Shown piece after piece: positions 36,461 to 58,268 of a DNA stretch of 64,000 bases. The DNA is from Isoetes taiwanensis. Lineage: Eukaryota; Streptophyta; Lycopodiopsida; Isoetales; Isoetaceae. Every line of letters begins with the position of its first letter. The first letter of the stretch is position 1. The stretch lies in contig JAJEKV010000061.1 in NCBI GenBank assembly GCA_021234155.1, positions 6,676,436 to 6,740,435 of the forward strand. Reading direction: 5' to 3'. The notes under the pieces were generated by a model. It was not told where the DNA came from and searched no databases. It saw only the letters and a program-made list of their open reading frames with translations. Position numbers and translations under genes: made by a program.

Positions 36461-36467
36461 GACGCAC

Positions 36468-36474
36468 TATATAT
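36468..36474 (+). promoter_or_regulatory. TATA box of the TMM-type gene
   Basis: TATATAT 58 bases before ATG 36532, giving a short leader. Confidence 0.6.
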
Positions 36475-36531
36475 CCTCTACCAAAATCCAAGTAATACTC
36501 AAAGAAGGCAACCAATCTTCTGTTTTCGCAA

Positions 36532-37943
36532 ATGGGCAATCAAATTTTTCTTCTGTTGTTGCATTGCACAGTTCTGGCTATGGCTATTCAAGCAGCAGGG
36601 GAGACAATGGGATTAGGGTTACGTCTGGACCCATCAGCTTATACAGATCCGGAAGAAATCCAAGCGGTTTATGAAATTATGACAGCCACAGGCAATGGCT
36701 GGGTAACTTCTATTCCAGATGTTTGCAGAGGGAGATGGCAAGGTATAGAATGCGTTCCTGATAAAAAAATGTTCTTCATGTAGTTTCACTTTCTTTTGGA
36801 GTTCTGTCTGATGATACGGCCTTTCCTTCCTGTGCGCCCAATTCCACCATATCCCCTTCCGTTGCTAAGCTCAGCCATTTGAAGAGGCTTTTCTTCTACC
36901 AATGTTGCAAGCTCAATCCTCAGCCTATTCCTCCTCAGATTGGCATCCTTGGAAAAAGCCTTGAATCCTTGGTTCTAAGAGATAATGGCCATGTTGGAGC
37001 TCTTCCCACCCAATTGGCCAATCTCACCAGACTTCATACTCTGGATCTTCACCGTAATCATCTGCAACGAAACATCCCTGCTTCATTTGGCAATTTTAGA
37101 TTGATACGAAGGCTAGATTTGAGCGAGAATCAATTGGATGGTCAAATCCCCAGCGGCCTTGGTAACCTTCTCAACCTCAAAATCTTGGATTTGAGCAACA
37201 ATTTTCTGCAAGGATCTATTCCAGCTTCGCTTGGTAGTCTTACTAGCTTGAAAAAAATGATCCTAGATAATAATCGGCTTACAGGAAGCATTCCATCATC
37301 CTTTGGAAGATTGCAAAGCATGCTGCTCATGGATCTAAGCCATAACAATTTGACAGGCAGCATACCTGCTTCATTTGGAGAAATGCAAAATCTGGAAGTG
37401 TTGATTTTAAGAAGTACCAAGATCGCAGCTCCAATTCCAGAGTCTCTAGGCAATTTGATGAATCTTAAGGTACTGGTTGCTTCTTCATCCAGATTGCAGG
37501 GCACAATCCCTTCATCCTTGGGGATGCTCAAAAAATTGAGGGTACTGAGGCTGGACAAGAATAGGTTGAATGGATCAATACCTGGAGAAATTGGAAGATT
37601 GCCATATTTGAATGAGCTGAATGTGGCAACGAATTCCTTGTCAGGAGCCATTCCATTCTCGAAAGAGTTTGTTAACAGGCTTGGCAGGAGGCTACAGCTT
37701 AACAACAATTCTGGTCTATGCTATTCTTCCACAGATCAACAGAAAGAGGCCATCAAATGGCAGACTAAAGCTAGACAATGCCCATTATATGGTATGCCAG
37801 ATGATCCAATGCTTCCCACGCCTCTTATTCCGTCTAGAATTCCTTCCATGACCACGCCAATTCCATCTCATTCATCTGTTCTGGTTGGATCCTTCGCTCT
37901 AACTCTCACGCTAGCTATATGGGTCACCACGTTTATTAGGTAA
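36532..37943 (+). CDS. TMM: TOO MANY MOUTHS-type LRR receptor-like protein (apparent frameshift)
   Basis: In angiosperms TMM is a plasma-membrane LRR protein without a kinase that works with ERECTA-family kinases to read EPF peptides and set stomatal spacing. Here a signal peptide (IFLLLLHCTVLAMAIQA) is followed by the N-terminal region ending DVCRGRWQGIEC, then HVVSLSFGVLSDDTAFPSC and LKRLFFYQCC, about ten plant-type LRRs (LDLSxNxLxGxIPxxLGxL), the C-cap AIPFSKEFVNRLGRRLQLNN, and a hydrophobic C-terminus (VLVGSFALTLTLAIWVTTFI) for membrane or GPI attachment. The gene is intronless, like angiosperm TMM, and the product would be about 470 residues. One base is missing in the A7 run at 36763-36769, which shifts the frame and gives a stop at 36781. 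The remaining 354 codons are clean. An assembly or sequencing error is as likely as a true null allele. A close RLP paralogue is the alternative assignment. Confidence 0.85.
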
Positions 37944-38726
37944 GTTGGTATATATATTACACTAGTATAGAATACAGCAACCTCATAAGAAAGAGGTTAT
38001 TTTGTTGATATTAGAAGGATGTGTTTAATGCAAACAGAACTTACTTTTCTATGTTTTTACATACACATTGCAAAGAGCGTGCTTTCCATGGAATAACACA
38101 ACACAAATATTGTTGCGCATTTCCAGCAGTACCTGTTCCATTCAAGCCTGTTTCAAGATACCTACACTAAAAGAAAAAATAAATTTGTTCACGCAAATAT
38201 AGCCGCTGTAAATGACAGCTCACTTAAAGAGCTGCATCCACCCATAACCTGACCATAGTAGTAAAGACACGACCAACTAAACACGAAATGACAGGACTAA
38301 TGTTCATTTTTAGAACCGTAGAGGTCTTTCAAAAATCAGCAAGTGGATAACTTCTTCATGTGACCATTGTTGTTTATCTTCCATTTAAAACCGGTCACTA
38401 CCCAAAGAAACATAAAGTTCTTCTATGGTAGTTAGAAATTCTCTGCTCCTTTACCTACATTGTGCTCAGCATGTAAAAAAATCATAGGGATGGCATCACT
38501 GAAGCCATATCTATGCTTTGAAATCAATAACTTTATATTCATGTGCAGGCTGTAGTACATAAAAAATGATGGCATTATCTCAACTTTGCTGCAGAACATG
38601 TAATGTTTTCTTCTTTGAGGTATGTCCATTCGGACTAAATAAAGGCTGTACATATCAAATGAGGGTTGCCTATAACATGCCGACTTTTTTGGAAATATGC
38701 CTAAGTCCAAAAAATCCTTCGTGTTT
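37944..38726. other. Intergenic between convergent genes
   Basis: No supported coding sequence. It holds the 3' flanks of the TMM-type gene (plus) and of the three-exon gene tail (minus). Confidence 0.55.
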
Positions 38727-39122
38727 TTATGCCTGGTCCTCATTCACAAGATCTGCCAAAGCAGTATCCACTAGCTGTTGCTTGTTGTATAACTCTATAG
38801 TTGTCTGTGATGCCTGCAAAAATAGTCAGTGTTAGTCTCACTCGATAGAATCTGCAAGCAACTAGATTAGCACTCACATATGTTATTGCGGTGCCAGGGC
38901 AAAAACTTACCAGATATTTGTGAGATCCTGTTGAAACTAAGTAACCCGACTGATAGCATGCCGTTGTGGAGGCTTCCTTCATGTAAAAAGTACCTATAAG
39001 CAGTACATGATTTGCATCCCAATAAATACTGGTAAACGCAAAGAGAAGAAAAGCAAAGACTTGGAGAAGCATTAGTATTTAGGTTATGTCAATTGCTTGA
39101 TTACGTACCTGATGTCCTCTTC
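38727..39122 (-). CDS. Last three exons of an unidentified plant gene
   Basis: Minus-strand exons at 39109-39122 (14-nt micro-exon, CCCTAG|...|GTACGT), 38911-38993 (CTTATAG|...|GTAAGT) and 38727-38813 (TTTTTGCAG|...TAA). All introns are GT-AG and the three exons join in one frame: KRTSGTFYMKEAS, then QSGYLVSTGSHKYL, then ASQTTIELYNKQQLVDTALA to a stop. There are no stops or shifts, so this part looks functional. I do not recognise the family. Upstream exons are not found between 39123 and the PPR gene. Either they lie beyond 41.8 kb, so that the PPR gene and perhaps the Harbinger element sit in an intron, or the gene is a 5'-truncated remnant. Confidence 0.65.
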
Positions 39123-39291
39123 CTAGGGAAAGAAGAAAAAATTCCCCGCATGCAAAATCATGTTCAAAATTTTATCATGTAGGCTTTGTGCAGTTTGGGC
39201 AATCAGTTCTGTCCGTGACCAATGGCCTAAATTCATATGCCAGCTCAATGCCATAGTTTGGGTTTGCCGTATTTTCTGGGTTCCAACAAAT

Positions 39292-41825
39292 CTATCCTTT
39301 CTGCATTACCAGATCTACTTGAAGCATATATATTTGCTTCTTCATATGTTTTCCAAATTCTTTTAGAATGGTACAAACTCTATTATTTTTGTAATTTGCA
39401 ACTCCAGTTATGAAATTCTGCATGTTACTAATAACCTTGAGCCACACTTTTCCATGTCTTTTCCATATGCCTGCATATTTTTCTACAATCTCAAATCCAT
39501 AAATGTTTCTGCCAACTTGGGAATAAGCATAGATGTTTGACATGAGCACATAGCCTGCTGCACATTGAGAATCTAACTGGAGAAGTTCATAGAAACATCG
39601 TCTACCTAATTCCAAATCTCCATAGGTTCTTGAGGCACTAAGCAAAGTCAACCACCCAATAACATCAGGATCAGGATTGTCTTTCAGTAGATTTTCTGCC
39701 TCAGTTAAGCATCCCCCACGGCTCAAAAGGTCAATCATACAGGTATAATGACAAATACCAGGTACTGTGCCGAGATTTTCTCGCATAAATTTAAAATGCT
39801 GCCGGCCCTCATCCATTAAACCTGCACGACTACAGGCAATAAGTATGCTACCAAATGCGGCCTGATCAGCTTTGATCTCGCTGTGTTGCATGCCCTCAAA
39901 ACATTGCCATGCCAACTCAAAATTGCCACTCTGGGCATACCCTGCGATCAGTGCACCCCAGGATACCAAATTCGCTTCTGGTAATTTTCTAAAAGCTTGG
40001 ACTGCATCCTCCAGACTTCCACATTTGGCATACATGTCAATAAGTGCATTTCCTACCACAATGTCCCGCTCCAGCCCATCATGCTTCAACTGCTCGTGAA
40101 TGAACCTTCCCTTATCTATGGCCCCTATAATACCACATGCTTTCAGGACACTCGAATAGATAACTGAGTTTGGTTTCAATCCTCCTTCTTGCATCTTGTC
40201 AAAAAGTTGAAGGGCAGGAAGACCCTCCCCATTTTGAGCATATCCAGTAATCATTGCACCCCACGAGACTACATCCGGATCGACCAACTGACCAAAGATA
40301 TTTTCCGCTTCTTCTAAAGCTCCACATTTGGCATACATATCTACAAGTGCACTCTCAACAACAGCATCAAATGCAATCCCACTTTTAGTCATCTGATCAT
40401 GAATGGTCCGACCCTGATCTATGTCTTCTAAGGAACCACAAGCTTTCAAGGCACTTGAAAAGATAACATTATTAGGCTTCACGTGCTCTTCTTGCATTTG
40501 CTTAAAAAGTACTAGAGCAGAGGCACCTTCTCCATGTTGTGCATATCCTGCTATCATTGCACTCCATGATACCATGTCTCTATTTGGCAAAAGTTCAAAC
40601 ATATTGTTTGCCTCGTGCAGACTTCCACACTTCGCATACATGTCAACAATTGTGCTTCCAATGGCAACATCTGAAATCAGCCCACTTCCAACAATGTGGC
40701 CATGGACTAGCCTCCCTTCCTCTATGGCTCCTATGCAAGCACATGCTTTCAAGCTGCTAAAACATGTAGCCCTGTTTGGAATGAAACCTTCATGTTGCAT
40801 TCTTTGTAACAGCTCTAATGCAACAATGCCATCTCCATTCTGTGCATATCCTGCAATCATTACATTCCAAGAAACAATATCTCTAGCGGATAAACTTTGA
40901 AATAAGTTACATGCCTCTTCTAATTTCCCACACTTTGCATACATGTCAACCAAGGTGCTCCCGACAATAACATTTGACACAAATCCATTCCTAAGTATTT
41001 GATCATGTATGAGCCTACCCTCAGTTAGAGCTCCTGTGACAGCACATGCTTTCAATGCACTTGAAAAGATTACCTCGTGTGGATTTACCATCCTGTTGCA
41101 GTTTTCGAAAAGAAATCTAAGGCACGAGTACCTTGCCCCTGCTGGACATAACCCGTGACCAATGCTCCCCAGGATACAATGTCCCTATTTTTTAAGCTTT
41201 CAAACACGATACGTGCATCAACCAGACTACCACATTTCGCATACATGTCAATGAGAGTGTTACCCAGGATAATGTCAGTAGCCAATCCACTTCTGGCAAC
41301 CTCATGATGTATTGTCTCTCCTTCCTTGAGGGCAGACACAGTTGCACATGCTCTGAGTGCAGCAAGATAGACATGTCTATTGGCATCTATACCCGATTTT
41401 TTCATTTGCTTGTACAGTTTAAGGGCCCTTTCACCTTCACCAAGCTTGGCATTTGCAGAAATAATGGCTGCCCATGTGTAAACAGTTGGCTTTTCAACCT
41501 TGGCAAATGCTTGATTTGCTGCATTTAAACATCTACAGAACGCAAACAAACGTATGATGTGGGTTCCAAGGAAGGGGTTTGACTCAAGCCCACTATGAGT
41601 AATAAGTGTCTGAACTTGCCTGATTTCTCCCTCTTTAGTGCACTCCTGCAGAAGATTGAATGCAGAATGTTCAGACAGGGATCCTCCCGGATATTGGATA
41701 ATCTCATTCAGATTGCTCTCGCCAGACCTTTTGCTGATATTTTTGAATAGTCTAGTATGGGGTGATGCCAAAATGAGAAAATTTGGCACCCCAATCATTT
41801 TCATCGTACCTGGCTGATCTTTCAC
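39292..41825 (-). CDS. PLS-class pentatricopeptide-repeat protein with E/E+ domain (apparent frameshift)
   Basis: PLS-class PPR proteins bind organelle transcripts base-specifically, often to direct C-to-U editing. The ORF starts at 41825 with a basic, Ser-containing leader fitting organelle import, followed by some twenty PPR motifs (DMYAKCGSLxxA, DIVSWGALVTGYVQQGQG, VIFSSALKACG). The tail has an E motif (AAGYVLMSNIYA) and an E+ part (GKVWLKV...GKHMKKQIYMLQVDLV) and stops at 39292 without a DYW domain. Two small indels between 41087 and 41109 (an extra A in an AAAA run, missing bases at GG) split it into 246 and 599 codons. The rest is open, so an error or a recent mutation is likely. The gene is intronless. 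The target transcript cannot be told. Confidence 0.9.
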
Positions 41826-41853
41826 TCCTCATTCCCACCTCGAATTCGAATAT

Positions 41854-42057
41854 GTTGCTGTAAAAGGCAGGAACTATAAACTCAAGCATCAATTTCAAAC
41901 GTTTATTCAATGTGGCCATTCCAAGCAATGAGCTTGAACATCTTGGACGCTCCCATGGAGACTTATTTCGGATACGTTGCTGTAAAAGGCAGGAACTATA
42001 AACTCAAGCATCAATTTCAACGTTTCCAAGAATGAGCTTGAACATCTTGGACGCTCC
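41854..42057. repeat. Tandem duplication upstream of the PPR gene
   Basis: The segment GTTGCTGTAAAAGGCAGGAA...GGACGCTCC is present twice, at 41854-41953 and 41976-42057. The second copy has an 18-base internal deletion. It lies in the putative 5' leader or promoter of the PPR gene. Confidence 0.85.
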
Positions 42058-42244
42058 ATATTCCGAGCAACAAGCAATGAGCTTCAACATAACATCTAAA
42101 CATCGCTCCGATGGACGCCTTAATTATCGCGCCCCCAACCAAATGGGCAATTTAAATGTTGAAGTTTAACCCCCTAGGCCTATATATAGAATATCAATAC
42201 CTACGTAAAGCAATATATTTTGTTCTTAAAAGTTAGATGTCTAA

Positions 42245-42420
42245 GGGCCATTTCACACTCAGGGGTTAAACTCCGTTAGGTTAGAAATGGGGTTCACACA
42301 TGTGCCATTAAGACATGCCGTTAAGTTAGGAGGGGGTTAATATATAACGGTTCAGTTAAGTTAACGGTGTCATTTAGCTGTCCTTCAGACTCACATTTTG
42401 TTAGGTTAAGATTTAACAGC
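42245..42420 (+). repeat. Left TIR and subterminal repeats of the Harbinger element
   Basis: The terminal GGGCCATTTCACACT is followed by CCGTTAGGTTAG, GCCGTTAAGTTAGG and AAGTTAACGG motifs, the same words that make up the right-end array. Such repeats are candidate transposase or Myb-protein binding sites (inference). Confidence 0.75.
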
Positions 42421-42791
42421 TGTTAACGGACGTAAAAATTCCTGTTCAAAGTTAATCCCAGCCTCAGAGCACCCCTTAAGCGCCGTTAAAGATGATCGAA
42501 GGCGGCAAATCGCGTCTTCCGGATCCCAGCAATCGTTTCTATGCATCTCAAAGATTGTTTTCTGAATTATTTTCAGTAGGTTTTGAAGTATCATTTCATA
42601 TCTTCTGTTTACCATTTTGTATCAAATATTTTTTTCTGGATTGTTTTTCATCAGTAGGGTTTTATCTACTTCCTTTTTGTCCACCATTTAAATCTATATT
42701 TCATTCACATTGCTCACATTGCAGTATTCTCATTTATCTTCATAGAATATACATTATGGCAATCTTCCATTTTACTAGATGTTTATACTAG

Positions 42792-43601
42792 ATGTTTATG
42801 CCATGCAGCAATATGTCAGATGCCACAAATAGCACAGGTACAGGTACATGTGCCCCAACAAATGGTACAGTTAACAGTGAGATTGCTGCCTCAAGTAGCA
42901 AGAAGCGCATGCGATCTCCAAATTGGACTTTGCAAGAAGTTTTTACTTTGGTGGAGGCAAAGAAACAAGAAACAGAACTTTGTGATGCTAATGTTGGATC
43001 GCGGGATGTGATGGAGACTGCAAAAAGCAAGTGGCGGAAGATATCTGAATACTTGCATGCTCATGGGTATGAAAGAAATCCTGATCAGTGCCAAAACAAG
43101 TGGGAAAATTTGATTTCTGATTATAAGAGCATAAAAGATCATGATCATCAAACAGGTGTTGCACCGTACTTCACATTGAGTAGGGCTGATCGAAAGAGAG
43201 AAAAGGTGCAGCCTGTCGAGTTTGATCAGCAAGTTTGGCATTTCATTGATGAATTTTATGGTAAGAGACCAGCCATTATCCCACCCCATACTCGTGATAG
43301 TAGTAGAGATATGGAAGCTACTGCTGACTCTAACATTGTTTCACCTACACCTGGTGATAGAGAGCCAGGTTCAAGTGGTAAGAAGAAGAAAAGAGTTACA
43401 ACAAATGAGAGGCTTGTGAAAGTTCTTGAGAACCTTGGAGACAAGAGGCAGGAAATAGATTCCAAGATGTGTGCCATTGAGAAGGAGAAGTGTGATGCAG
43501 AAAGAGAAGAGGCAAGGGCAACAGAAAGGGATAGACAAGCTTTAATTGGTGCACTTGCCTCGATTGCTAAATCATGGGAAAAAATCAGTGATAGGCTGTA
43601 G
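42792..43601 (+). CDS. Myb/SANT-like (trihelix-type) Harbinger ORF1 protein
   Basis: An intact 269-codon frame. PIF/Harbinger elements need two proteins: a DDE nuclease and a Myb-like partner that binds the ends and carries the nuclease into the nucleus. Residues about 38-118 hold a Myb/SANT domain with tryptophans 45, 81 and 104 (SPNWTLQEVFTL, KSKWRKISEYL, QCQNKWENLISDYKSI). A basic KKKKR cluster lies near residue 195 and a charged C-terminal coiled coil (EKEKCDAEREEARATERDRQ) follows. An in-frame stop just upstream supports the start at 42792. It is the only intact gene of this element and its placement just inside the left end is typical. It could also be a domesticated trihelix factor, but the bracketing TIRs favour a transposon gene. 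Confidence 0.8.
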   Translation: MFMPCSNMSDATNSTGTGTCAPTNGTVNSEIAASSSKKRMRSPNWTLQEVFTLVEAKKQETELCDANVGSRDVMETAKSKWRKISEYLHAHGYERNPDQCQNKWENLISDYKSIKDHDHQTGVAPYFTLSRADRKREKVQPVEFDQQVWHFIDEFYGKRPAIIPPHTRDSSRDMEATADSNIVSPTPGDREPGSSGKKKKRVTTNERLVKVLENLGDKRQEIDSKMCAIEKEKCDAEREEARATERDRQALIGALASIAKSWEKISDRL

Positions 43602-44300
43602 ATCGATCTTGAAATGTGTTTTGTATTTTTGTATAACTCTTGTGTTAAGAGTGGTTTGTTTCTGCAGACCACATTTTTGTAATGAAACCACATTTTTGTT
43701 AAGGAATTGAAGTTTTATACCATGAAGCCTCATTTCTTTTGTCTCATGTGTTAGATCTGTAATGCATTGGATGTCTTGTAGACTGTTGAATGAAGTAGAG
43801 GCATTGTTTTCTAGTGTCCAAATCGGTTTTTCCTCCATTGGCTTCTACAGCATATCTAAAAATTTCCCTTAGATTTTACTGTAGATCTTCTCCTGCTACA
43901 TTGATATGGTTTATCAGCGTAGGGATCCTGCTACATTGCTTGTTACTGCCATATTTTACAGCTCTTCCTGCCACTAGTAACCTCGTCCCATCATACTCTG
44001 GTGTCTTCCACCCATGTCCCACTCATTACTTTGTCTCGTCTTAGGCAGAATCCCCTTTGTTATTATTTTATGTTCTATTATGCACTCAAGGTTAATGCTT
44101 AAATGCCTCTATAGCAGTTATGTTATATTACTGTTCAACAATTCCATTTTCCTTGTGCCAACCAACTCGTTAACATTTTGCTCCCTTTATGCTCCCTTAC
44201 CCTTCTCCATATTACTGCATGTTACTGTCATATTTTGCAGCATATCCTACCACATCATTTGTTAGTAGCTGTATGCCAGGTTTTACCCTCATATTATGGT
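43602..44300 (+). other. 3' flank of the Myb ORF within the element
   Basis: AT-rich, with TGTAATG/TTTTGT motifs suited to polyadenylation. No coding sequence is supported. Confidence 0.5.
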
Positions 44301-44340
44301 GCCCACTACCTCTGTTTGTGTGTTTAAATAATCCTCATGG

Positions 44341-44791
44341 GCAATCAACACACAACTACCATTAACATTATTAACACAAACCATTGCATTTAACACATTT
44401 AAATTAAAATCCCCCTTAAACCCCCTTTGGTTTGGGTGCATATTCACACGGGGGGTTACGTAGGGCAGCGAGAGCCCCAAAAAATTTACAATACATGTAC
44501 AAAATTTTCACCATTGAGTACATTCTCTCAAACCTTATAGTATTTTGCAAACTTTAATATACAGTATACAAAAACTTGTACATGCATACCCCACAAACGA
44601 GGATCGCTATGTACGGTCCAGATCTTGGAATAAAGGGTAAATATGCCCATCCGACAGCTCTCGTTGCCCGGAGTAACCCCCCGTGTGAATATGCACCCAA
44701 ACCAAAGGGGGTTTAAGGGGGATTTTAATTTAAATGTGTTAAATGCAATAGTTTGTGTTAATAATGTTAATGGTAGTTGTGTGTTGATTGC
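44341..44791. repeat. Long inverted repeat, about 134-bp arms (MITE or foldback)
   Basis: Arms 44341-44474 and 44658-44791 are nearly perfect reverse complements (outer GCAATCAACACACAACTACC, inner GGTTTGGGTGCATATTCACA). They are separated by a 183-bp spacer. The arms' high identity suggests a young insertion inside the Harbinger element. No clear target duplication was seen. A GGGCCCTTCGGGCCC hairpin lies just outside at about 44808-44823. Confidence 0.85.
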
Positions 44792-45029
44792 TATATTAAA
44801 AATTTTTTTGGGCCCTTCGGGCCCTAACAAAAGCAAACGTAGATAAACTTTAAGGGCCTAAATCATTAAACAACCTACTCGTATGAACAGCAGTTTAGTA
44901 AAACTAATGACAACGACATTTGCCATTACTTGGAAGTTCCAAAAATTTGTCTCCACTACCAACGGCCTATTAATAAAAGCATTTGCTATTTGTGAAGGCA
45001 CATAAAGTGCTCATGTGTGTGTGCTGAAA

Positions 45030-45330
45030 CACTATGAATCCATAACACTATATCTCTATCCAACAACTTGTCAAAAAGCTCTCTCTGCATCCTCTAAGCT
45101 TGCACACTTGGAATACCTATCAAAGTTTATTCCCAAGGACAATGTTCACCTAAAACTTCCGTCCAATAATAAGTTCATGGATGTTCTCTCCCTGCCCTAA
45201 GGGTGTTATCCGGTCTAGCATTATGCCCTCACATTTGCATGTTCTCAAAGAACCGCAAAGCACGATCTTCTTTAGAGTAGCCTTCTGGCTTTGTGCATAT
45301 CCCGAGATCCCATGTTTGACGAGGTTGCGA
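45030..45330 (-). pseudogene. PPR gene fragment inside the Harbinger element
   Basis: Read on the minus strand across frames: GENIHELI, NIVLGNK, YSKCASLEDAERAF and DKLLDRDI, the typical order of PLS-class PPR motifs (compare MYAKCGSLEDA). Stops and shifts interrupt it and only about 100 residues remain. It differs from the PPR gene at 39-42 kb in wording, so it derives from another PPR gene. It is either a captured host fragment or a separate insertion. Confidence 0.75.
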
Positions 45331-46900
45331 TATACCTCTTGCTGATGTCGCCGGACATTGATGTCTTTCTAGTTTAATGTCATTCTAGTTTAGTCAACGC
45401 CCTTAAAAACTAAGGGCACCGGACCTTTGATTACGCAGACCAACAAATCCGCACGCAGTTTGCAACCCCGCTTTGGGCATGGTGCAACCAAAACGAGAAA
45501 ACGTAGAAAGCCAACTAGGAACAAGGGTTGGGAAGGCAATGCCTTCCAAAAACAAGAAGATCAAGTGCTTTGTCTTGAAACTTGATTCTGGTAAACTTGC
45601 TCTTCCCTAACGATATTGTGGTCTTTGACTGAAACAAGAAGAGTGGTAGGGCCAAACCATACTGCACTATTGACCCATATTCCTTGTGCAAGATAAACTG
45701 CATACAATGAAAAACCAAGCATGGACACCAACTTTTTGTCATTTGAAATGACATTAAGAGCTGAACCAGATTGTTACAAAATGGAAAACAATTCAAGAAG
45801 CTTGCTCCATGAATAAAACAATTTAACAAGTTAAACTATGTTAATTAATAAACTTGAAGCTCTTATTTTACTCCTCGGCGGTGCTTGGTCCTCGCTCTAG
45901 CCAGTGTAATTACTTAGTCGGAAGAACAATTCGAGACAGAGCTTTTGCCTTATCTTTGTGCCTTTGCCTTCTTGAAATGGAAGAACAACTTCATGAAGTT
46001 CACATTTATCTCTTAAATTGAGAACCACAAAAAGAAGATGCATTTTGTGAGTCCACTTGTAATTAAGAAAGGGAGGGACCAACCTGAAAGATTTTTATCT
46101 TAGACCTCCCGGAGAAGACAAATGAGGGTCCCGTAAGCGATTTCCCTTAATCCAAAGAGCCGTATTTGCCCCAATCTTCGCATCAACAAAAGGTAACAAG
46201 AAGCAAGAGCTTTCACATGATGGCAATAGCTTCATGCTCCACATACTCCCCGCAACATCGATCAATACGGTATTTGTGCTCGACGGACTTGGTTTGTCCA
46301 ACCTCATCCGGGCGCATGCTTAAGTATCACGGGCTCTGATCGGATAGCAAGATTTAAGTATTGGGCCCATGAATAAAGCATCCGAGATTAGGAATTTGGG
46401 TGAAGTGTCCGGAAACAAGCCGTTCAGTTTAAGCATCTCAAATCCCCATCATAATGAGAACCGATTCTTCTTAAATAAAACCCGAGATCCTCGCATGATC
46501 TCAGAATATTCAACAATCCACAAATCTTTAGTCTTACTTTTAGCAAATCCTCTTTAGTTGCCCATTTGCTTTTGATTTGGCTTGCCCACATCAATTTGAG
46601 CTCCATGACGGTCGATTAGCTCGTCCACAAAACAATTGGAGCTGACCCCGAAGAAACTTCTGCGGAAAAAATCTACCGGGTGTTGACCCATGAAGAAATC
46701 CTGCGGGAATACACGAATGGAAAAATAAAAGGGGAACCGACCTACCCCTTGGATCGAATCGCTTCAAAAACAACGCAAAAAAAACTGCGAAGGACCACCG
46801 GATGGAACGGAGGGAAGAATTAAAGCACGAGGGTGCAACACCACCACGTTAGAATCGACCACAAACCCTAGCAACCGTGCCCCAATTACAGGCATGCTCC
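45331..46900 (-). other. Unrecognised minus-strand fragments
   Basis: Frames at 45829-45515, 46082-45897 and 46307-46095 (NTALWIKGNRLRDPHLSS) look partly protein-like and may belong to a LINE or host fragment. I cannot assign them. Confidence 0.3.
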
Positions 46901-46904
46901 GAAT

Positions 46905-47180
46905 CTCATGAGAAAAGGGCTTTTATTATAAGCCCTTGGATCTTTTGAATTAAAAGAGGCTTTCTTTGTAAGCCCTCTGATCTTTCCATTGAGGAGGATG
47001 AGATAAAAATTGCACAAATTGCATGCAAAAACTTGGTGCACTCTAGATGTACTTGATTAGTATGCCTCGTTTATCGCCCATGAAATCATATAAAACCATG
47101 CCAAAAAAGCGTATAAAATCACAAAAAAAACCCCCTGTTATAATGCTACATATTCAGCTTATGTTCTTGCAGTGCATATT
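46905..47180 (-). repeat. Dispersed repeat copy
   Basis: On the minus strand, GAATATGTAGCATTATAACA-GGGGGTT is followed by TACGCTTTT and ACATCTAGAGTGC. This matches 62.02-62.15 kb on the plus strand. The neighbouring AAAAGAGGCTTT...AGCCCT(C/T).GATC phrase also recurs at 60.91 kb. It is likely the terminal part of an interspersed element. Confidence 0.6.
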
Positions 47181-47540
47181 ACCGCACTCCCTTTGCATCA
47201 CCATTACTTTCATACATTACTTTCATCCCGACCTCAATCGACATCCTCAGATATTCGCGAGCTTTTAATCAGCAGTTTTAATTCGCAACCTAAGTTGCAC
47301 CTGCATGAATTTTTGGAGTTAAAAGATAGAAAATTCAAATCCTTATAGTCCTTTTCTGTATTTTATATGTAAGGTAAGGTAAGCATCATACTCTTTTGAT
47401 CTGTCCACTTTTTAATCTGTCCACTTTGAACTCAATGGCAATCATCACACCACTATTTATCTGAAAGTGGACATTGTAGTATGCATCAATCATTTTGATA
47501 ATTCTTAATATGATCTTTATTATTATTTATTCCTTATGCA

Positions 47541-47654
47541 GCTGTCTCCAGGATCACAACGGCTGCAGCAGAGCCGTCAGTTCCACATCCACCTTCTGTG
47601 ATTGGAAAGCCAACTGCCAATGATGTTGCTTTGAGGTTAGTGGAGGCTGGATGA
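47541..47654 (+). CDS. Putative terminal exon in the element
   Basis: A TTATGCAG acceptor at about 47540 is followed by an open frame AVSRITTAAAEPSVPHPPSV...ALRLVEAG and a stop at 47652-47654. It lies between the Myb ORF and the transposase on the same strand. No domain is recognised. It may be an upstream exon of the transposase transcript or a captured piece. Confidence 0.3.
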   Translation, partial: AVSRITTAAAEPSVPHPPSVIGKPTANDVALRLVEAG

Positions 47655-47757
47655 TTTGTGTAATGCTTCTGTTTCTTTGTTGACTCAAGGAACTTTACTG
47701 CTGCTGCTTCGTTTTAGCTAAAATGAACATCAGCTCTATACAACACATTTGTCCACA

Positions 47758-48873
47758 TCATGTTCCATATAGATCTGACAGGTTTAGATGCATCTGAAGA
47801 CCATCCAGCACTGCTCTGCCACCAGGATGCAACAGAAAATGCTCTACTGCCTTGCTAAAATCTGGCACATAGGACTTGATTTTAGCTTTGAGGAACCTTC
47901 TATGGACTAGATTGGCTAGGTATTTGAACTGCTCAGAATAGGGAAGAATCAAAGGACCCAGTTTTAAGAAATTTAGCTTGAGAGCAGAGGCTGCCACATG
48001 TGCAACATCCTTGGTTAGGGTAATTCCCATGAGCCCTTTATCATCTGCATCTTGCATAACACAGTTGTATGCTATGTCATCTGCTCCCTTGTGGATCCTA
48101 ATAGAGTGAAGCAATCTATACTTGGATCTTGATCTTTCAGATCTCTTGTTTGTAAGAATAGCTCCAGCGCCTCCTACTCTGAACAGACAATTTGTAACAA
48201 GCATAGGACGATGGTTACCAAAGTATGTGTTGTTGGTGACATTTTCAGTGGTCAAAACAACAGCATAGGTGTTTTGTTGGGTTTTCAGTAACTCCTTTGC
48301 AAGGTCCAGTGCAATAACTCCTCCACTGCAGGTCATGCCCGACAGACTATAGGAGAGAACGTGTAATCCAAGCTTGAACTTGTTGACAATCATGGCACTT
48401 AAAGAAGGAATAGAACTAAAGCCACTGCATTGAACAATGAGAATGCCAATGTCTTGAGGATGAATTCCTGTCTTCTTTAGCAGCTCTTCCATGACACCAA
48501 TGAGAACCTCATGTGTTTCAAGCCTCACATATTCTGTTGTCAGCTTGGCTTCTTTTTCTTGGAAGAATGCAGGAGGAACATAGGTCTCATCCCCAATTCC
48601 ACATTTTATCAGCACTCTCTTTTGGAACTCGAGAGATTCAGGAGTATAGACACCAAGTCTTTTTCCAAAGAACTCCACGAGCTGTGCAGGACATTTTCTG
48701 CTCTCATCTGGCTTGAAGCATGCAAAATCTAGCATGTATATTGGAGATGGAGATGCAATGTGGTGCAGCAGGATTAAAAGGCAAACACAAAGCAGCCATG
48801 GAAAAAACTGGCTAACCAAGGCAATGCAGAACTCTGCCATGTGAAGGAGGCTCTCAAGCTCTGGACCAGCCAT
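47758..48873 (-). pseudogene. 3-ketoacyl-CoA synthase, C-terminally truncated
   Basis: KCS enzymes condense malonyl-CoA with long-chain acyl-CoA in the ER membrane, the committing step of very-long-chain fatty acid elongation for waxes, cutin-associated lipids and suberin. The 371-codon frame is intronless and open: a membrane segment at residues 15-40, YMLDFACFKP, the thiolase-like N-domain (IPSLSAMIVNKFKL), catalytic Cys182 in GMTCSGG, NHRPMLVTNCLFRVGGAGA, HKGADD, and catalytic His349 in HPGGRAVLD. It ends at residue 371 (DLYGT). The following RFGNTSSSS(L/I)WYEL region with the catalytic Asn and the C-terminal glycine loop is absent in all downstream frames. Normal KCS proteins have about 450-520 residues, so this lacks roughly the last 90. 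It lies opposite to, and inside, the Harbinger element, suggesting capture. Confidence 0.85.
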
Positions 48874-49551
48874 GTTGAGCCTTCAAGGTATCTGCTAGAT
48901 TTGAAGGCTGTTACATTGGATGTGGCCCAGGGGTCTAACCCATGTGTTTTATTTATTTGGCAGAGAGATGGCTCAGCTCTAGACATTCTTCTGGAATAAT
49001 TTCTGGATATTTAACTTTAGCAATGATTGGACCTAGTTTATAGACATCTATGGGTTGAAAATTATGCAGTTATTGCTGGCAGTAAGGTTATTGACATATA
49101 TGCATGAAGAAGCTCAAGTTCAGCTCCGTTAAGCTAAGTTAAGCTAAGTTTCAAGGGGGCTCTGTTCAGCTCAAGTTGCTTGGACTAGCCTAAGTAAACC
49201 CGGACTCTTAAGGATATAGCATATACTGGCTTTGGGGTAGGCCCCCTTTTTTGCCCAATAGTATTGACCTTAGACTCCATATATATGCTGTATTTGTTCA
49301 TATAGTTTATATTTGTCAACATGTACGATAAATGTGACAATGTAAATGATGTTTTATTGTCTCTCATGCTTATAAAATTTCTGCAGAAACAGATACAAAT
49401 CTATTGGAAGCACTCTATGTTCTAAAGGTTTTGATTATAATGGATAGTACATGTGCGTCATAACAATTATACTTGATTGTACTTTCAGCTTCATTTTCAA
49501 TTCTGAATTTGATTATCTCAATTTGACAATTATACTTTTATTCTCGTGCAG

Positions 49552-50597
49552 CTTCATCTTCAAATCTGTTTGATGACTTCGAGATGACTATAGGAGAGAT
49601 AGAAATTTACAATCTCATGTTGTTTACAATGGTCATGGTTCACACGGTTTTCATGATGCCACAAATGCGTATTCTATACAATAGAAGCCCCAAACGATCT
49701 AGAACACATACTATGTTACAACAAAATGCAATAATGCATGATGATATGATTATGCATACCATTCTTTCGATATTTTTGGGCAGTCCACACACATCTTGGT
49801 GGGTGAAACCAAGGAGCACCTGTATGGTGGGATAGATTTGTGCTTTCGATGTGTATGATGATCCGGCGTTGGAAAGAGAATTTTAGAATGACCGGGAAAC
49901 ATTTGATTGGTTATGTGATAAGTTGGCTCCTATGATCGAAAGAAGAGTACCAATTTTCTGAAACCTCTACCAAGATCTATTCGTGTAGGGGCGGCATTGT
50001 ACAAGCTTGTGAAGGGTTGTGACCTTTTACAAGTTTCCAGCGGTTGCAATTGGAATGAGTACCTACCTCGGTGATACTTAAACAAGTTTGCTATGCAATT
50101 AACGGGAAGTTGGAGCATAAAATTTGGTGGCCAAAGAACCATGAACTTGCTTTCGGGTTGAAGAGGGCTTTAGAGATGCAAGTGGATTACCAAATTGCTA
50201 TGGTGCTATTGATTGATTGCGCGTATGCAGTTATTCCGCCCCTGGATTTGGTGGTGCTGATTATTTTGACGAAAGACAAGTCCATTCTATCATTGTTCAA
50301 GCTGTATGTGATACTAGTAGGAAATTCACTGATATATTTGTTGGATTTCCAGGTTCCACACATGATGCTCGTGTGCTTAGGAATTCAGGTTTGGCACAAA
50401 GAACAAATGCAAGGAAAATCTTGAGGGAACCAACTATGCTCTTAAATGGTAATTCTGAGGTTGCATCCCTATGTTGTTGGAGACAAAAGCGTGTCACAGT
50501 TTCTTCATGGATCATGGCTCCATATGTTGGAAATGTGGCTGATCTAACTCACATTCAGAATTTGTTCAATGAAGGAAGGAAGGAAGTTTATTTTAAC
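49552..50597 (+). pseudogene. Harbinger (HARBI1-like) DDE transposase, 5' part
   Basis: The nuclease of the element. After a CTCGTGCAG acceptor at 49551 one frame gives KPRSTCMVG, stop, ICAFDVYDDPALEREF and ETFDWLCDKLAPM. Other frames give IRVGAALYKLVKGC (near 49980), VCYAINGKLEHKIWWPKNHE (near 50083), LPNCYGAID (Asp 1, codon 50211) and IIVQAVCDTSRKFTDIFVGF with GSTHDARVLRN (Asp 2, codon 50364). A stop directly follows GAID. The match to DDE_Tnp_4 transposases is clear. The coding sequence is cut at about 50597 (NEGRKEVYFN) by the LINE and resumes at 55556. Several stops and shifts make it dead. Confidence 0.85.
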
Positions 50598-51840
50598 GCG
50601 TCCCACGGAGGCGAGAGGCCTATGAGAGACGGTACATGCGGAGAACAGAGCAAAAAGCCAAAAACCCCAACACCAAAACAAACAATGTAATCAGATGCAA
50701 GAGAACCCTACTACCGATGAAAAAACCCCCACTTGGGAGGAAAAACCTAACGATGGGCTCTCAAATACCATGCCCACGAAGAGCAAGTCGGCGGCGAAAT
50801 CTGCGGGATGTAAGCTCGGTCGCTACCATAGGTGATGCGGTGATCCGATGTAGCGATGTGTCGAGCATCTAAGATCGTGTGCCTTTGCTGGACATGGGCA
50901 TATCTTTGAGCATTTGGAGGGCATGGTGCTCATCCTCTATCCGCGTGCATCTCCCAACTGCATATTATCCTCTCCTCCCACAGGGGATCCGTGCCGCCAT
51001 TCACCCCCAGCTGACTGTTTCAATTAGAGGTAATGGGAACCCGTCCTTATGGCGACAATAGCTCTCCGTTTCTTCCGCGAGATGTGTGCTTTCAAGTGCC
51101 GATGGGGTCCATGCTCAAGGCCGGGATTAATCGGCGTGATAGTGCTCTGTCTTGGGCTTTGCAAAGAGTAGAGGCATCCCAGTGGTGGCGGCATAGCCCG
51201 CATCAATTGCCCATTAGCATCGGAATGCGCGGTGCCACCATCTGTTGGTAATCCATAGACCACCTCCTAAACCATCCCTTACAATTGGCTCGTACCATAC
51301 CCTCTTCGGGGCTGGGGCCCTGCGTTTAACAACCACGGCTGTGGGGCAGCGATGCTCATCCATCCCATCCACCTTATGGAAGCAAGTAAGATGCCTCCAA
51401 TAGCGAGAATCTTTGTAAAGGCGAAAACCCGTCTCATACAACAAAATGCGATGCGATGCGGTTCCCTTCACTCCCAAGCTATATGTCAAGAAAGCTTTAC
51501 GCACCCTTTCCAACCTATCCCGCGTGTTTTGCTAACCTTCCGGGCCCCAAACCTCCACCCCATATAGCGTAAGACCGGCGACCAAAGCCCCTAAACAGGT
51601 GTGCTCTCCTCGCCCAAATCCACGTAGATCTATCCCAAGAACACGCGTTTTGCATCGCATATAAAGCCTTCCAGCACGACGGCTCTCCTCTCCACACACT
51701 CATCCCACAAAGATGTTAGTAGTGAAATCAATTCCCGGATACTTGAAGCTCCTTTCCATCTCCACTTCCCGTCCCCCGTAATATAACTCGGGATAGGGTG
51801 TTGCGAGGACGAGGATCGCGAAGCTTAGTTTTGTGCAAGT

Positions 51841-52080
51841 TCACTTTGTCATTCTCGTTGCCCCACAGAACCCACCGAGGGCATCCAAATCTTTTTTGCA
51901 TACTGGCGGCCGCGTGTGGGCTAGCAAAGCTACATCATCCGCATATAGCAACCGGCTCCGCCAGGGTCGCCTCGAGATAATTGCACCCCTCCCCCCATGG
52001 TCTTTGCATCCACGTCTCCAAGCTATCAATGTACAACCCAAAAGCGTTGGAGACAACGGGCAGCTCTGCTTAACTCCCAT
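51841..52080 (-). pseudogene. LINE reverse-transcriptase core (YADD)
   Basis: An 80-codon open piece with GVKQSCPLSPTLLG (finger-palm) and LLYADDVALLAHTR (catalytic Asp pair). Between them the sequence is frame-shifted relative to an intact enzyme. Confidence 0.85.
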
Positions 52081-53097
52081 AGTGCTAGCTACCGCCGATC
52101 TTCATAAAAGCGGTCGCGGCATGAATCCCATCATAAAGGCGGTGCACCCCATTCGCAACTCTGTGGAACTCGCCAAGTCTTGCAACCTCTCCTGACAAAG
52201 ATGTCTCGGGGCGGTATCATATGCGGAGTCTTAAAATCTACAAAGCGACAATACAAGTGGGTGTCGGCGCGTTAAAACTTTGCCTCCATCAACACTCTCA
52301 AAGTGAAGATATGGTCGATTAGGTGGGTGAGGCGGGGCGCTTTGCTGGCCAATTGCCCGCCACCCCTCCCTGGGCCCTTAGTGAGTTTCTTCTCCATCAC
52401 CCCCGGAGCTTTTAGCAAGCTGTGAGCTTACCATAATCATCCGGTAATTTTGGCTCATCCCTTATTACCAGCTTTATGCGGGAACAACCTTACTAACCAT
52501 CCACTCACGGGGGCCCCATTTCGAGCACGGTTGATGATCACCGTCGGGGCCCTACCCACGGATGGGCCACCCCATTTCAACGACTCGACTGCGGCCCCAC
52601 GTAAATCCTTTGCCTTGCCATTCGCGGATGCTCGAGACCTGTTGGACATCCTCCGGCGTGAGCTGCCGACACCTCTCCTACGATGGGGACCTTGGCATTA
52701 GCTCACGGGGGTCATATAACTCCTGCAAGCGGTTGCATCCATTGCTCCACACTTACATTACCGACCACACGCGCTTACGGTATAACACCTTAAGCCAAAA
52801 AGCTTTTGGCTACGCCATGAGCATATCAAGCGAGCTCTGGGTTTTACGCCATGTATCTCCCTTCTTGGCTTTTAGGAAGGCTTATAGTCTTGCGGGGCCT
52901 GTGGCGCAACTGTGGATCTATGACCAAGCGCGGCTGGCTCTTTAGAAACCTTGCAATCAACATCAAACCCGCGGGTTCTCAGGGGGAAAATCGGCGGTGT
53001 CCCTCGCGGAGGCCCTTCCTTCAAAGGAAGCCCGGCGGTTTGCAGCGGCGCCCTCACCAGCCATGCACACTTTTGTCTGCGATTATGTAAAAAGCTA

Positions 53098-53980
53098 TCA
53101 AACCCACAGTAACTCCCGCACCAACACGCATTCATCTGCCCACCACACGATGGCGTGGGATGTATGGTAACCCTCCACGCCCCTTTGCGGTGTCTCCACT
53201 ATTGAGTGCTCCCAATTCCAGGCCAGACATAAAGCGGGTAGGTGATCCGACAAAGCCTCCTCATCCCACAATAGTGCCAATGGAAGTGTGTAACCATATC
53301 AAAGTCTTTGCTACGGGCGAGAAGGTAATCCAACACACTAGCTCCCCATCCCGCCTATCACTCCTGCAAGTAACACCCCCGAAAGGTGGGCCATCGGCCG
53401 CATACCATTACAAATTACCATGTCAAAAAAACGGCGCGAGCTGGACCAGGTACCGCGCCAAATGGTCTAGCCACCATATCTAGGAGTGCCGTATCTTTGA
53501 ATAGCGGCCGCCTCTCAAACCAAAGTGGATCGACATTAAGCGTCACCTTGGAAGGTCACCGAATCAAGCTGCGTCGTCTGAGCATTGAAATCTCCTAGCA
53601 AAAACACCCGTCCCCGCTTGTCTATAGCGGTCTATGTCATCATCTGATTCCTATACGGCATCACGGACATATGGTGCATCATGTACTGGTAGAACTTAGA
53701 GCTCCGCATGGGGAATGTAGCGGCTAGCAAGAAACAATGGGACATGACCAGGGCTCTAATAGCATTACCCACATGTAGCGGTTAAATGCATCGTAATTCA
53801 AGTGTGATCTTGCATGCTAAAGGCGTCCCTAAAGTAGCAAGCCACTCCCACCGCATTCGTCGCCATGGCGCTCATTAGCAAGTGAGAAATGCCGATATCC
53901 TCCGAGAATGTCGGCAATCGATGCCCTTCATACTCCCATGTCTCCTGCCAGAAGGCGATGTCCATGTCCGTCGATCCCAT
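53098..53980 (-). pseudogene. LINE endonuclease domain
   Basis: Motifs in order on the minus strand: AFWQETWEYEG, GRVFLLGDFNAQ, ALSDHLPALCLAW. These are the catalytic signatures of the EEP/APE-type nuclease of plant LINEs. Stops and shifts occur between them. Confidence 0.8.
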
Positions 53981-55555
53981 TCAAGCCATCGCCCATACGC
54001 CACGGAAGCCCCCTTCCGGGGAAACAATGCGAAGACACTTTCCCTATCTTGACCGCGGCCAGGACCCATCGAGTGCACGAGGGGGCTGGCGTGGTTGGAA
54101 TAACTTTCGGGCGACTGGCGATGGGACCACGATGGATGTCTTTGCCAGTTGTGGAAGGCCTCAATCCGCCCTCTCCACGGCTGTCGGCCCGATGTTCTGG
54201 ACCGCTTCGCCCTGCGACGCAGCCTGTTAAGTGGGAATCTTTGCTTCAAGAATCGTCGGCGAGGAGGCACATATACCTTCATCTTGCCATTAACCAAACC
54301 AGCAGCCCCTCGGCAGCCGAATCTCTCTTATCTTGACCAACTCTTGGCTTCTTTCCGGGTTGTTGCGGTGGCGTGAGATCGAGATCGGTATATGGACATA
54401 CCTTTCAAGCGGCGGTGCGGTGCAACAACAAAGATTTTGCCTCCCATTCCAAGGCTGCAAACTTAACTAGCCGAGGTCTCATGCTCGGGTCCTCCCACCC
54501 TGATTGGACTCTTGATAACCAAATCATCAATTGGAGCTTTGCAAGTACCCGGGGTGGTAAGCTTACACGCAAATCCTCGCCTTGCTCCTCCCAATCCCCG
54601 CAAAATAAGGTTGGCGTGCACGGATGTCTTGCTCCTCCGCGAAGTACCGCTGATTCCCCAGAGCCACCTCGGCCTCACGGTATAGGGGTGCTGGTGCCGG
54701 GAATGGCTGTGGTGCACTCGGACTCGTTGCACCTCCATTGAGGTCCTGCATCTCTTCTTTGTAAGTGGGCCATATGGTTCTCTATATGTAAGCATCTTCG
54801 ACATCTCACTGCACATGCGCCTTTGCTTCATCAAGGAATTGGAGCCTGCCCCGCACCTTCCACATCCTTTTCCTTAGCATCTATCCGACCAGCCATGCTT
54901 GTGACTTGTACAATGCTGCTGCGGCAACCCCTTCATGTCGGCCCCGGTTAACTTGCGCCATGTCTTCCATCCACTTCTTGGTGGACCTTATCCAAGCGGT
55001 GCCCCATCTCAAAAAGTGACTAGCTGCGTTGTTGCTTGTATCTCCCCTCTTATCGGTCATTAGCCTTTTGGGCTCCCGCAATCATAATCCCCGAGCGAAC
55101 TTCCACAAGGGAAATTCGGCCTCCTTACGATTGGAAGTCGCTTCTTGGCGCAGCCCACTGGCGAGATGGTCCGTGATGCCTCAAGCTTGCCCGGCAGCAC
55201 GGAGGGAACCGGCCTGTTCTGTACAACCTGATTGCCTCAGCACGATAGCTGCTCTCATGATGGGGACGAGGTATCCAAATTGGCGGGCTCTTTTCTTGGC
55301 GCATGCATCTTTGTCGGGGTCGCCATAGAGGGCCGGGACTGTCAGGTGGATTCCGGCGACTAAAACAGAGGAAACACCATACAAATCATACACCGACGGA
55401 AAGCTCGTTCGATAAGCTTTCCAACGAGCCCAAGAACACCTGAATCTGACACCGGAATCCCGAGTTATGAGCAAAAGAGCAGGGCTGAAACCCTAAGCGC
55501 CAGAGGGCACAGACGGCATTCTATGGATGTGAATAGCATACTATCCAATTCCTAA

Positions 55556-55858
55556 CATGTGAGGGCAAGACTTTTCATTGAGCAAGCATTTGGCATACTA
55601 AAAAGGGGTTTCAGTTGTTTGAAGTCAGTTTTATCTGAAGATGTTGCATTTGTGCCCGAGATGATCTACTCTTGTTGTGTGCTTCATAATCTGTTACTAG
55701 AAAGGAAGCTTATTGATGTAGAAGCAGAGCTGCGTATATTAAGTTTAGAGGAGGATGATGACGACGAAGACCCAGAGGGAGGAGCTGCAGCATTGGCCTT
55801 CGAAGATGGTGAGACAATGCGAAGACACCTTGCAGAATACCTTGTCTTCAACACTTGA
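55556..55858 (+). pseudogene. Harbinger transposase, 3' part
   Basis: VRARLFIEQAFGILKRGFSC (catalytic Glu in IEQAFG), then YSCCVLHNLLLERKLID and an acidic tail (EEDDDDEDPE) to a stop at 55858. It continues the part ending at 50597. Confidence 0.9.
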
Positions 55859-57100
55859 GCAGAATCTCGGTTTGAACTTGGATCTTTCGAACATGCACAG
55901 TGCAGGTTAATTTGGATTTTGGCATTATTTAGGAAAGGCTAATATGTTTTTGTTTGCTAAGTTTCAAGAATAAGGTACTGGTCTACTCTTTTGAGTAAGT
56001 TTCTTTGCTAGGTTGCTTGGTTTTAAGAACCATGAACAGGTCTCCATAAGGCAGGATGTATCAGAAATTTATTTGTTTACTGCTAAGGCATCTTGTGATC
56101 TTTTTTCTGGCCAAGCAAAGCCATAGACATATGAGCAGGTCTCCATATGAGCTAGTTTTTAAGACATATGAGCAGGTCTCCATATGGTAGGAAGTATAAG
56201 AAATTTAATAATTAACTCAGAATGGTATCTAGAGGTCATTTTTAAAGCTAGCAAAGCCATATGTATGGAGCTATCGCGATTTGACACGTGGTTATAGCAT
56301 ATAACTACACAAAGCAGAGGGTATATCTTTAGTTCCTTAGCATTTAGTGTCAAACATTTGCTCATAATGCATGTCTTATAAACGGGACATAGTATGTAAA
56401 GTCGTGGTATGTGCGTAGTATGGGCGGGTTTTTGAACCATGTTTTTAGAAATCCACGGATGAAACGTGGGTAACATTAAAGCTTTTAAAGGTGAGTGTTT
56501 GGCACCCGTAGTCTTAAAATACAAAAGGGGCCTCTGCTGCTCTAGTTGAAGATCAAATCCAGTCATGTAATTATGGTGCATGGAATAACAATTGGGTATA
56601 GTCTGCATAACATCCAGGTGGAGTATATAGACATGGCCCTAAGTGTGGAATAAGGGTAAACCACGCAACACTCTGGATAATAGTAAGCTTGATTAACAAG
56701 AGCATTAAGGACACGATTTTTTAACCAAGTTTTTATGCACAAGATGCATACGGGACGTACTACATATGTACAAGATATTGTTGTGGAATGGTAAGCCCAG
56801 CGGGTTGTCTGCTCTGCTCTACTCAACAGTAGCATGTTGGTAAAGCTTCAATAACGTGAGGATTTGCAACATAGATACATACGGTCTTCTGCATTAGATA
56901 TTTGCTTAAGAGTATAAACAAGAATCGATTTTTTGTTTTTTTACTTAATACAATGGACATTTGCGCTTTCTGCAAGTTTACACAGTTTGCATTTCCAGAA
57001 GTATTAAAATCATTAACTAGGCTTGTCAAGTATCTACCCATCTTGATTGATCGAGAATACAAAGTGCGTAAAGAGTTCCTCTTACTCACCATAGGTTACC
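55859..57100. other. Non-coding 3' part of the Harbinger element
   Basis: AT-rich. A phrase AG(A)CATATGAGCAGGTCTCCATA recurs two or three times at 56.04-56.18 kb. No gene is supported. Confidence 0.5.
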
Positions 57101-57104
57101 ATGG

Positions 57105-57240
57105 GAACAATAGTAAATAGTTAAGCAATAGTTAAAAAGGAACAATAGTTAAGCAAGAGTTAAAAAGGAACAATACTTAAGCAATAGTTAAGCAATAGTT
57201 ATGCTGGTTAAAAAGGAACAATAGTTAAGCAATAGTTAAT
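57105..57240. repeat. AGTTAAGCAATAGTTAAAAAGGAACAAT tandem array
   Basis: About four imperfect copies of a unit near 30 bp made of GTTAAGCAATAGTTAAAAAGG and GAACAATAGTTAAGC. Confidence 0.85.
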
Positions 57241-57338
57241 TATGGTTGCGAACATTTAGAAACCAATGCATATAGCGCGTCATTTCCTCCTTTCTAGTTT
57301 CCTCAATACTCAATTGAGAATTTAATAACGTCTTGCAG

Positions 57339-57679
57339 TGTGAAGTGCTCTATCACGATTTCCGTTATGTTAGTAATTTAACTTAACGACGTCATGTAGT
57401 GTGAAGTGCTTTATAACGGTTTTCGTTAGGTTAGGTGTAACATAACCTAACGGTATCGTGCAGTATGAAGTGTTTTGTAACGGTTTCCGTTAGGTTAGGT
57501 GTAACGTAACCTAACGGTATCATCCAGTGTGAAGTCTTTTGTTAACGGTTTCTGTTATGCTAATTTTTAATCTAATGGAAAGTGTGAAGTGAAATCTTGT
57601 AGTTAGATTATCTTAACATAAAGGAGCATCCGTTAGATTAAAAATTTAACCTAACATAACGGCCAGTGTGGAATGGCCC
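57339..57679. repeat. Right subterminal array and right TIR of the Harbinger element
   Basis: Four units of about 63 bp each begin (A/G)TGTGAAGTG and contain CCGTTAGGTTAGGTGTAACG followed by TAACCTAACGG, an 11-bp inverted repeat. The unit start resembles the TIR itself (AGTGTGGAATG). The terminal TIR is at 57665-57679. Confidence 0.85.
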
Positions 57680-58268
57680 TAATATTCCTGGGCTGAGAAG
57701 AGCCCACAGCTTGACACGTCTATTCATTTCGGTTTTCCTAAATATGAAAGGAAAATTTTTTGTTGCCACATGTGTCATGATCTAAACATCTAAACCTCTT
57801 GCTGGTCGAGAAATTCCAGATAGCCTAGAGCCCGTCGCAATCCACTGCTGCAGATCTTCAATGATTGGGCACTTGAGCTGTTTGGGGACATAGGCATGGC
57901 ATTTTGGCATGCGAAGACTATTCAGAAACACTATTTCTGAGACTATTTCTAATTGATTCTCATCGATTAGACAAACAGATGTCTAATATTCCTGGGCTGA
58001 GAAGAGCCCACAGCTTGATACGTCTATTCATTTCGGTTTTCCTAAATATAAAAGAGGAAAAAATTTTGTTGCACACATGTCATGATCCAAACATCTAAAC
58101 CTCTTGCTGTGTCATGATCCAAACATCTAAACCTCTTGCTGGTCGAGAAATTCCAGATAGCGTAGAGCCTGTCGCAATCCACTGCTGCATATCTTCAATG
58201 ATTGGGCACTTGAGCTGTTTGGGGACATAGCCATGGCATTTTGGCATGCAAAGACTATTCAGAACAGG
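57680..58268. repeat. Tandem duplication flanking the element, including an empty site
   Basis: Copy 1 starts at the TAA beside the element (57680) and ends at about 57930. Copy 2 covers about 57977-58268 with high identity plus an internal 31-bp duplication (GTCATGATCCAAACATCTAA phrase). Copy 2 starts AGATGTC-TAA-TATTCCTGGG, joining the element's left-flank AGATGTCTAA (42235-42244) to its right flank. Confidence 0.9.

Follow-up and report, generated by a model that had tools for sequence, protein, structure and literature searches.

A 15.4-kb PIF/Harbinger transposon carrying copies of host loci in the genome of Isoetes taiwanensis

PIF/Harbinger transposons show a preference for TWA target sites, and many plant PIF terminal inverted repeats (TIRs) start with GGGCC. 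According to PMC2836001 and PMC9710019, the elements of rice and zebrafish need two proteins; in zebrafish Harbinger3_DR a 9-bp subterminal motif is recognised by the Myb-like protein, and binding is described to TIRs or to subterminal sites. PIF elements with gene fragments are known from maize and rice surveys, and Pack-TYPE transposons are defined as non-autonomous, any element with a transposase match being classed as autonomous (PMC8903248). The element described here lies in the lycophyte Isoetes taiwanensis, at positions 42245–57679 of a 64,000-nucleotide stretch of contig JAJEKV010000061.1 (the window, meaning the whole stretch analysed). Like rice Ping/Pong, maize PIF, and zebrafish Harbinger3_DR, it combines a Myb-like open reading frame (ORF), ORF1, with a DDE transposase, TIRs, and a 3-bp target duplication. 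Unlike them, this copy has its own TIR and subterminal sequence, extends over 15.4 kb, and contains a broken transposase. It is almost certainly one PIF/Harbinger DNA transposon, inserted at a TAA, carrying copies of host loci, and enlarged by other repeats.

The element is delimited by a 15-bp TIR pair (14 of 15 positions identical) enclosing 15,435 bp, with TAA on both sides and with the Myb/SANT ORF and the DDE transposase in the same orientation (Table 1), as a preliminary description of the sequence had stated. The assignment to PIF/Harbinger, made in that description, is borne out by the 3-bp target-site duplications (TSDs) and by the combination of Myb and DDE_Tnp_4 domains. An empty site is found on contig C1094 (sequence L022), which carries a duplicate of the locus without exactly the element interval: it is 96.4% identical to window 41671–42244 and 97.5% identical to 57679–58113, with the junction at a single CTAA, and is thus devoid of 15,435 bp and one TAA. 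This homology, interrupted by small gaps, continues leftwards to window 35201 (97.5–98.6% identity) and rightwards to 61762 (94–95%). Whether the C1094 copy represents an allele or a segmental duplication, the interval behaves as one insertion. Because C1094 has a single TAA and the interval is absent from it, the two ends are those of a single inserted element. The subterminal repeats reported earlier were recovered as well: with at most one mismatch, CCGTTAGGTTA occurs in either orientation twice in the left 450 bp, seven times in the right 450 bp, and nowhere in the interior or the rest of the window, while at most two mismatches give five, 11, five, and two occurrences, respectively. The motif is well placed as a subterminal one.

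Copies that share these ends form a family in the genome, for which a search had been proposed. At least 69 pieces match the left 456 bp and at least 41 the right 430 bp (window included), and a degenerate form of the TIR has 74 exact matches, against 18 for a reversed control. Ends were paired by position, giving 23 copies with 300-bp flanks (L001–L020 and L029–L031). Identical 3-bp TSDs flank 20 of the 23, and 17 of these are TAA or TTA (10 TAA, seven TTA, and one each of TTT, TCA, and TTC). Together with L032, a 24th copy with shorter flanks, these copies range in size from 1,806 to 9,570 bp. The miniature inverted-repeat transposable elements expected to share these ends did not appear among the exact TIR matches, where the two nearest TIRs facing inwards are separated by 1,806 bp; the search did not extend to shorter copies with altered TIRs. 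As a separate observation, a right end and a facing exact TIR lie about 15.6 kb apart at C949:117162–132723, possibly a second very long member. Left ends are 74.6% identical and right ends 98.8% identical between L014 and L020, and the ends of the family look as if they had been exchanged between lineages.

The transposase of the window copy is damaged, and in two relatives it is open. Two stretches on the strand of the Myb ORF match DDE_Tnp_4 (PF13359), at 50217–50690 (E 7.3e-10) and 55556–55858 (E 5.6e-8). A stop lies immediately past the first D motif, the frame is broken at other points too, and a long insert resembling a long interspersed nuclear element (LINE) sits between the second D motif and the E motif; the catalytic residues are putatively named D, D, and E by motif. 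No solved structure matches the transposase sequence up to an E value of 1. Since its transposase is broken, the window copy could move only by means of proteins supplied by relatives. Both genes are present, without the LINE-like insert, in L016, L017, and L020, which measure 7.3–7.8 kb. The transposase frame is open in L017 (461 amino acids; E 2.4e-35 to DDE_Tnp_4 over the whole frame) and in L016 (454 amino acids), while the Myb region of L016, L017, and L011 consists in each of two ORFs split by one in-frame stop.

The extra length comes from three sources: a 2.8-kb repeat, a 5.0-kb LINE-like insert, and captured DNA. The preliminary description was right to invoke nested and captured DNA, but its estimate of several times the usual length has to be reduced to about twice, as judged from the 7.3–7.8-kb relatives; without both nested repeats the element measures about 7.6 kb, similar to these. 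The part of the 2.8-kb repeat from about 44657 onwards is found nearly whole at 11 other places (89–93% identity). For the 5.0-kb insert, 31 of the 37 other matching pieces share one starting base, window 50568, and end at many different points on the opposite side, as 5'-truncated LINEs do; the longest reach window 55504, leaving the last 50 bp of the insert unaccounted for. From this pattern and a putative reverse-transcriptase motif, the insert is presumably a LINE; Pfam gave no match for the one fragment of it tested. Copies L016, L017, L020, and L013, and a further copy on contig C974, are continuous across the insertion site.

Two adjoining segments of the window copy were probably captured from host loci. 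The first, piece X, has the C1038 locus as its presumed donor; it shows an apparent intron border by eye, and the ORF beside the C1038 match is weakly fn3-like, below the Pfam cut-off. The second is a 1,142-bp fragment of a 3-ketoacyl-CoA synthase (KCS) gene, whose match on contig C60 falls within an open 480-amino-acid KCS frame. The fragment is most of a fatty-acid-elongation gene: 374 codons remain open, and the C-terminal ACP_syn_III_C domain of the donor is absent. Five bases (TAGAT) are common to piece X and the KCS fragment at their join. Around the donor, C60:32791–158125 contains five KCS-like matches including the donor itself, probably a gene cluster. An exact TIR match on C60 (L035) was set aside as chance; blastn gave no similarity to the element there.

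The same cargo is found in a second element, on C974 (13215865–13260455). This 44.6-kb element has TAA on both sides and flanks unlike those of the window copy, and its excess length corresponds to additional gaps relative to the window, about 17, 13, and 8 kb long. It matches the window at 94% in the transposase region, 97% in piece X, and 98% in the KCS piece, with the same right KCS junction. As this cargo recurs in an element whose flanks differ, the captured DNA has moved. Over the 525 bp of KCS sequence shared, nine sites distinguish both carriers from the donor, six are specific to the window, and one to C974, a pattern that fits one capture before the two copies parted. Separately, L008 (C1083:1038124–1043108) contains, at 97.8% identity, the 179 bp that adjoin the KCS junction on its right, and no KCS; this is possibly a flank predating the capture.

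Other members carry different host-like fragments. A kinase fragment is common to L004 and L007 and is 95–98% identical to loci on C1084 and C1060. Another, shared by L015, L017, and L018, has 90–98% identity to a locus on C1059 that includes the end of a WRKY domain, and is joined in all three to a fragment of C1019; the WRKY match is above the Pfam cut-off in L015 and L018 and below it in the donor ORF. In L017 (C107:13060–21372), this double cargo stands beside the open transposase frame. ORFs with leucine-rich repeats (LRR) and weak PAN-like ORFs (PAN below the Pfam cut-off) occur in L011, with matches at C1025; C925, C590, and C1001. The PAN part is also present in L020 and the LRR part in L020 and L032, and from these matches the LRR and PAN fragments are probably captured cargo as well. 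Cargo can thus be traced to a source locus in seven of 26 copies (the window and C974 copies counted), with three more probable cases (L011, L020, and L032), in a scan that was uneven over the 26 because Pfam was applied to the ORFs of L001–L020 only. A DUF4283 block in L003 was rejected as a captured gene, its many matches elsewhere marking it as another repeat; a Rad51-like match in L003 (E 0.0017) is below the Pfam cut-off.

Several observations weigh against reading the locus as one transposon with a simple history. The TIR pair is not beyond chance by itself and was dropped as a stand-alone proof: when the whole window was scanned for 15-mer pairs with the same TAA or TTA flank, at least 14 of 15 identical positions, and a spacing of 0.5–20 kb, the element's own pair was the sole match, but the reversed window also yielded one pair, as did 10 mononucleotide shuffles in total. 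Chance is removed by the C1094 empty site and the family of copies sharing both ends. Within that family, the TSDs of L013, L017, and L019 (three of the 23) do not match, and L032 has TTA against TAA. Among the 20 matching copies, L030 and L031 lie about 12 kb apart on C1097 with the same flanks and TSD, and are best read as one insertion duplicated along with its surroundings. The right end of the C974 copy is 97.6% identical to that of the window, but its left end only 76.5%, and its left end with the Myb region 76–83%; this disparity marks it as a mosaic. By such comparisons the copies appear to be mosaics for which a single line of descent fails over the whole length. At the join between piece X and KCS, moreover, the two carriers differ, each keeping donor bases that the other lacks, a difference that calls for deletions at a later time or for a second event.

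These points bear on three other explanations. The ends could derive from two separate PIF elements, the left TIR from one and the right from another, with unrelated DNA between, a possibility that the preliminary description had itself raised. The weak correlation between left- and right-end identities over 26 copies (Spearman 0.28, from dependent pairs) and the strongly diverged left end on C974 would suit it, but both ends are missing from the C1094 site, where TAA occurs once, the TAA is identical at both outer ends, and an exact-pattern search shows no further such TIR inside the window, which leaves this explanation scarcely credible. It is also conceivable, though unlikely, that the gene fragments reached a resident element as independent insertions or duplications rather than by transposon capture: the capture event itself is unobserved, and the junctions share a few bases at most. 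Against this stand the right KCS junction, identical in two elements at different sites, and the several family members that hold different host-like fragments between the same ends; by eye the junctions show no ends of another element, although no search was made for such ends. Selection on the KCS fragment as a chimeric gene, instead of its passive carriage, is very improbable. Its 374 codons are still open, and over 364 codons it differs from the donor by 15 synonymous and nine non-synonymous nucleotide changes, a ratio of non-synonymous to synonymous change (pN/pS) of about 0.18; the same value could, however, result from constraint on the donor's branch or from a closer source gene, the ACP_syn_III_C domain is missing, and the C974 copy is without 509 bp of the middle.

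The preferred explanation remains a single transposon with captured cargo, for which a mechanism can be proposed by analogy with the rice and zebrafish elements. The Myb-like protein and DDE transposase of an intact relative would recognise the terminal and subterminal motifs, excise the element, and reinsert it at TWA. Gene pieces may be gained during repair of the excision gap, when synthesis switches template at short matches and copies other loci; the TAGAT shared at the join between piece X and KCS agrees with template-switch capture, and would be weak evidence for it. A broader proposal, which we regard as possible but doubtful, is that in this plant the repeated capture and spread of host-gene fragments is the work of a transposase-coding PIF/Harbinger lineage as well as of its defective derivatives, and that the lineage swaps its ends with others by template switching, cargo, motor, and ends evolving as exchangeable modules.

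Compared with Pack-TYPE PIF transposons, as presented in PMC8903248, the family is alike in holding host-gene fragments between PIF ends and in multiplying them by transposition, and unlike in that cargo is also found in elements keeping Myb and transposase genes (the transposase frame being open in L017). The window copy has a host-gene fragment between its TIRs with a source elsewhere (the KCS gene on C60), as Pack-TYPE elements have; it is not non-autonomous in the sense of that definition, for it keeps a broken transposase gene and the cargo-bearing L017 an open one. It behaves as a Pack-TYPE element would, yet the definition keeps it out of that class. Gene capture by PIF elements has been published before, and the 15.4-kb element represents a known kind in a well-preserved state; what is new is the family, its cargo, and the presence of cargo in transposase-bearing copies. 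A literature search found no paper on PIF/Harbinger elements in Isoetes, which says little about journals outside the collection searched. The locus provides a gene-carrying PIF/Harbinger family whose bounds are defined, together with source loci, an empty site, and open-transposase relatives, in a lycophyte genome, in which PIF capture can be studied outside grasses. It also suggests that pipelines setting aside transposase-bearing elements in gene-capture counts would miss such carriers.

Table 1. Features of the element and its target-site duplications, in window coordinates.
Feature	Position	Strand	Remark
Left target-site duplication TAA	42242-42244	.	Single TAA in C1094 empty site
Left TIR GGGCCATTTCACACT	42245-42259	+	
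Left subterminal CCGTTAGGTTA-like motifs, at most two mismatches	42273-42408	.	
ORF1, Myb/SANT-like protein, 269 aa, open	42792-43601	+	PF13837, E 7.3e-16
Nested unrelated repeat, 135-nt inverted arms in left part	44341-47155	.	Present elsewhere without the element
Captured fragment of C1038 locus (presumed donor), piece X	47401-47778	+	96.6% over 385 columns
Captured 1,142-bp KCS fragment	47770-48911	-	97.7% to donor C60:118854-119995
Transposase 5' part, broken	49521-50573	+	
LINE-like insert, antisense, splits transposase	~50574-55554	-	Junction bases approximate
Transposase 3' part with E motif region FIEQAFGILKR	55555-55858	+	
Right subterminal region with tandem units of 64 bp, plus CCGTTAGGTTA-like motifs in both orientations	57312-57663	.	
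Right TIR, GGGCCATTCCACACT read on - strand	57665-57679	-	
Right target-site duplication TAA	57680-57682	.	

The surroundings of the element show features of their own. Two long ORFs of the pentatricopeptide-repeat type adjoin it on the minus strand at 39292–41828 (Pfam being applied to the larger one only), and window 36069–41671 is 98.6% identical to C1094. On the other side, the right flank (57680–58264) is a partial tandem duplication of 72- and 157-nt blocks, with spacings of 304 and 337 and 96–97% identity, parts of which match many other places in the genome.

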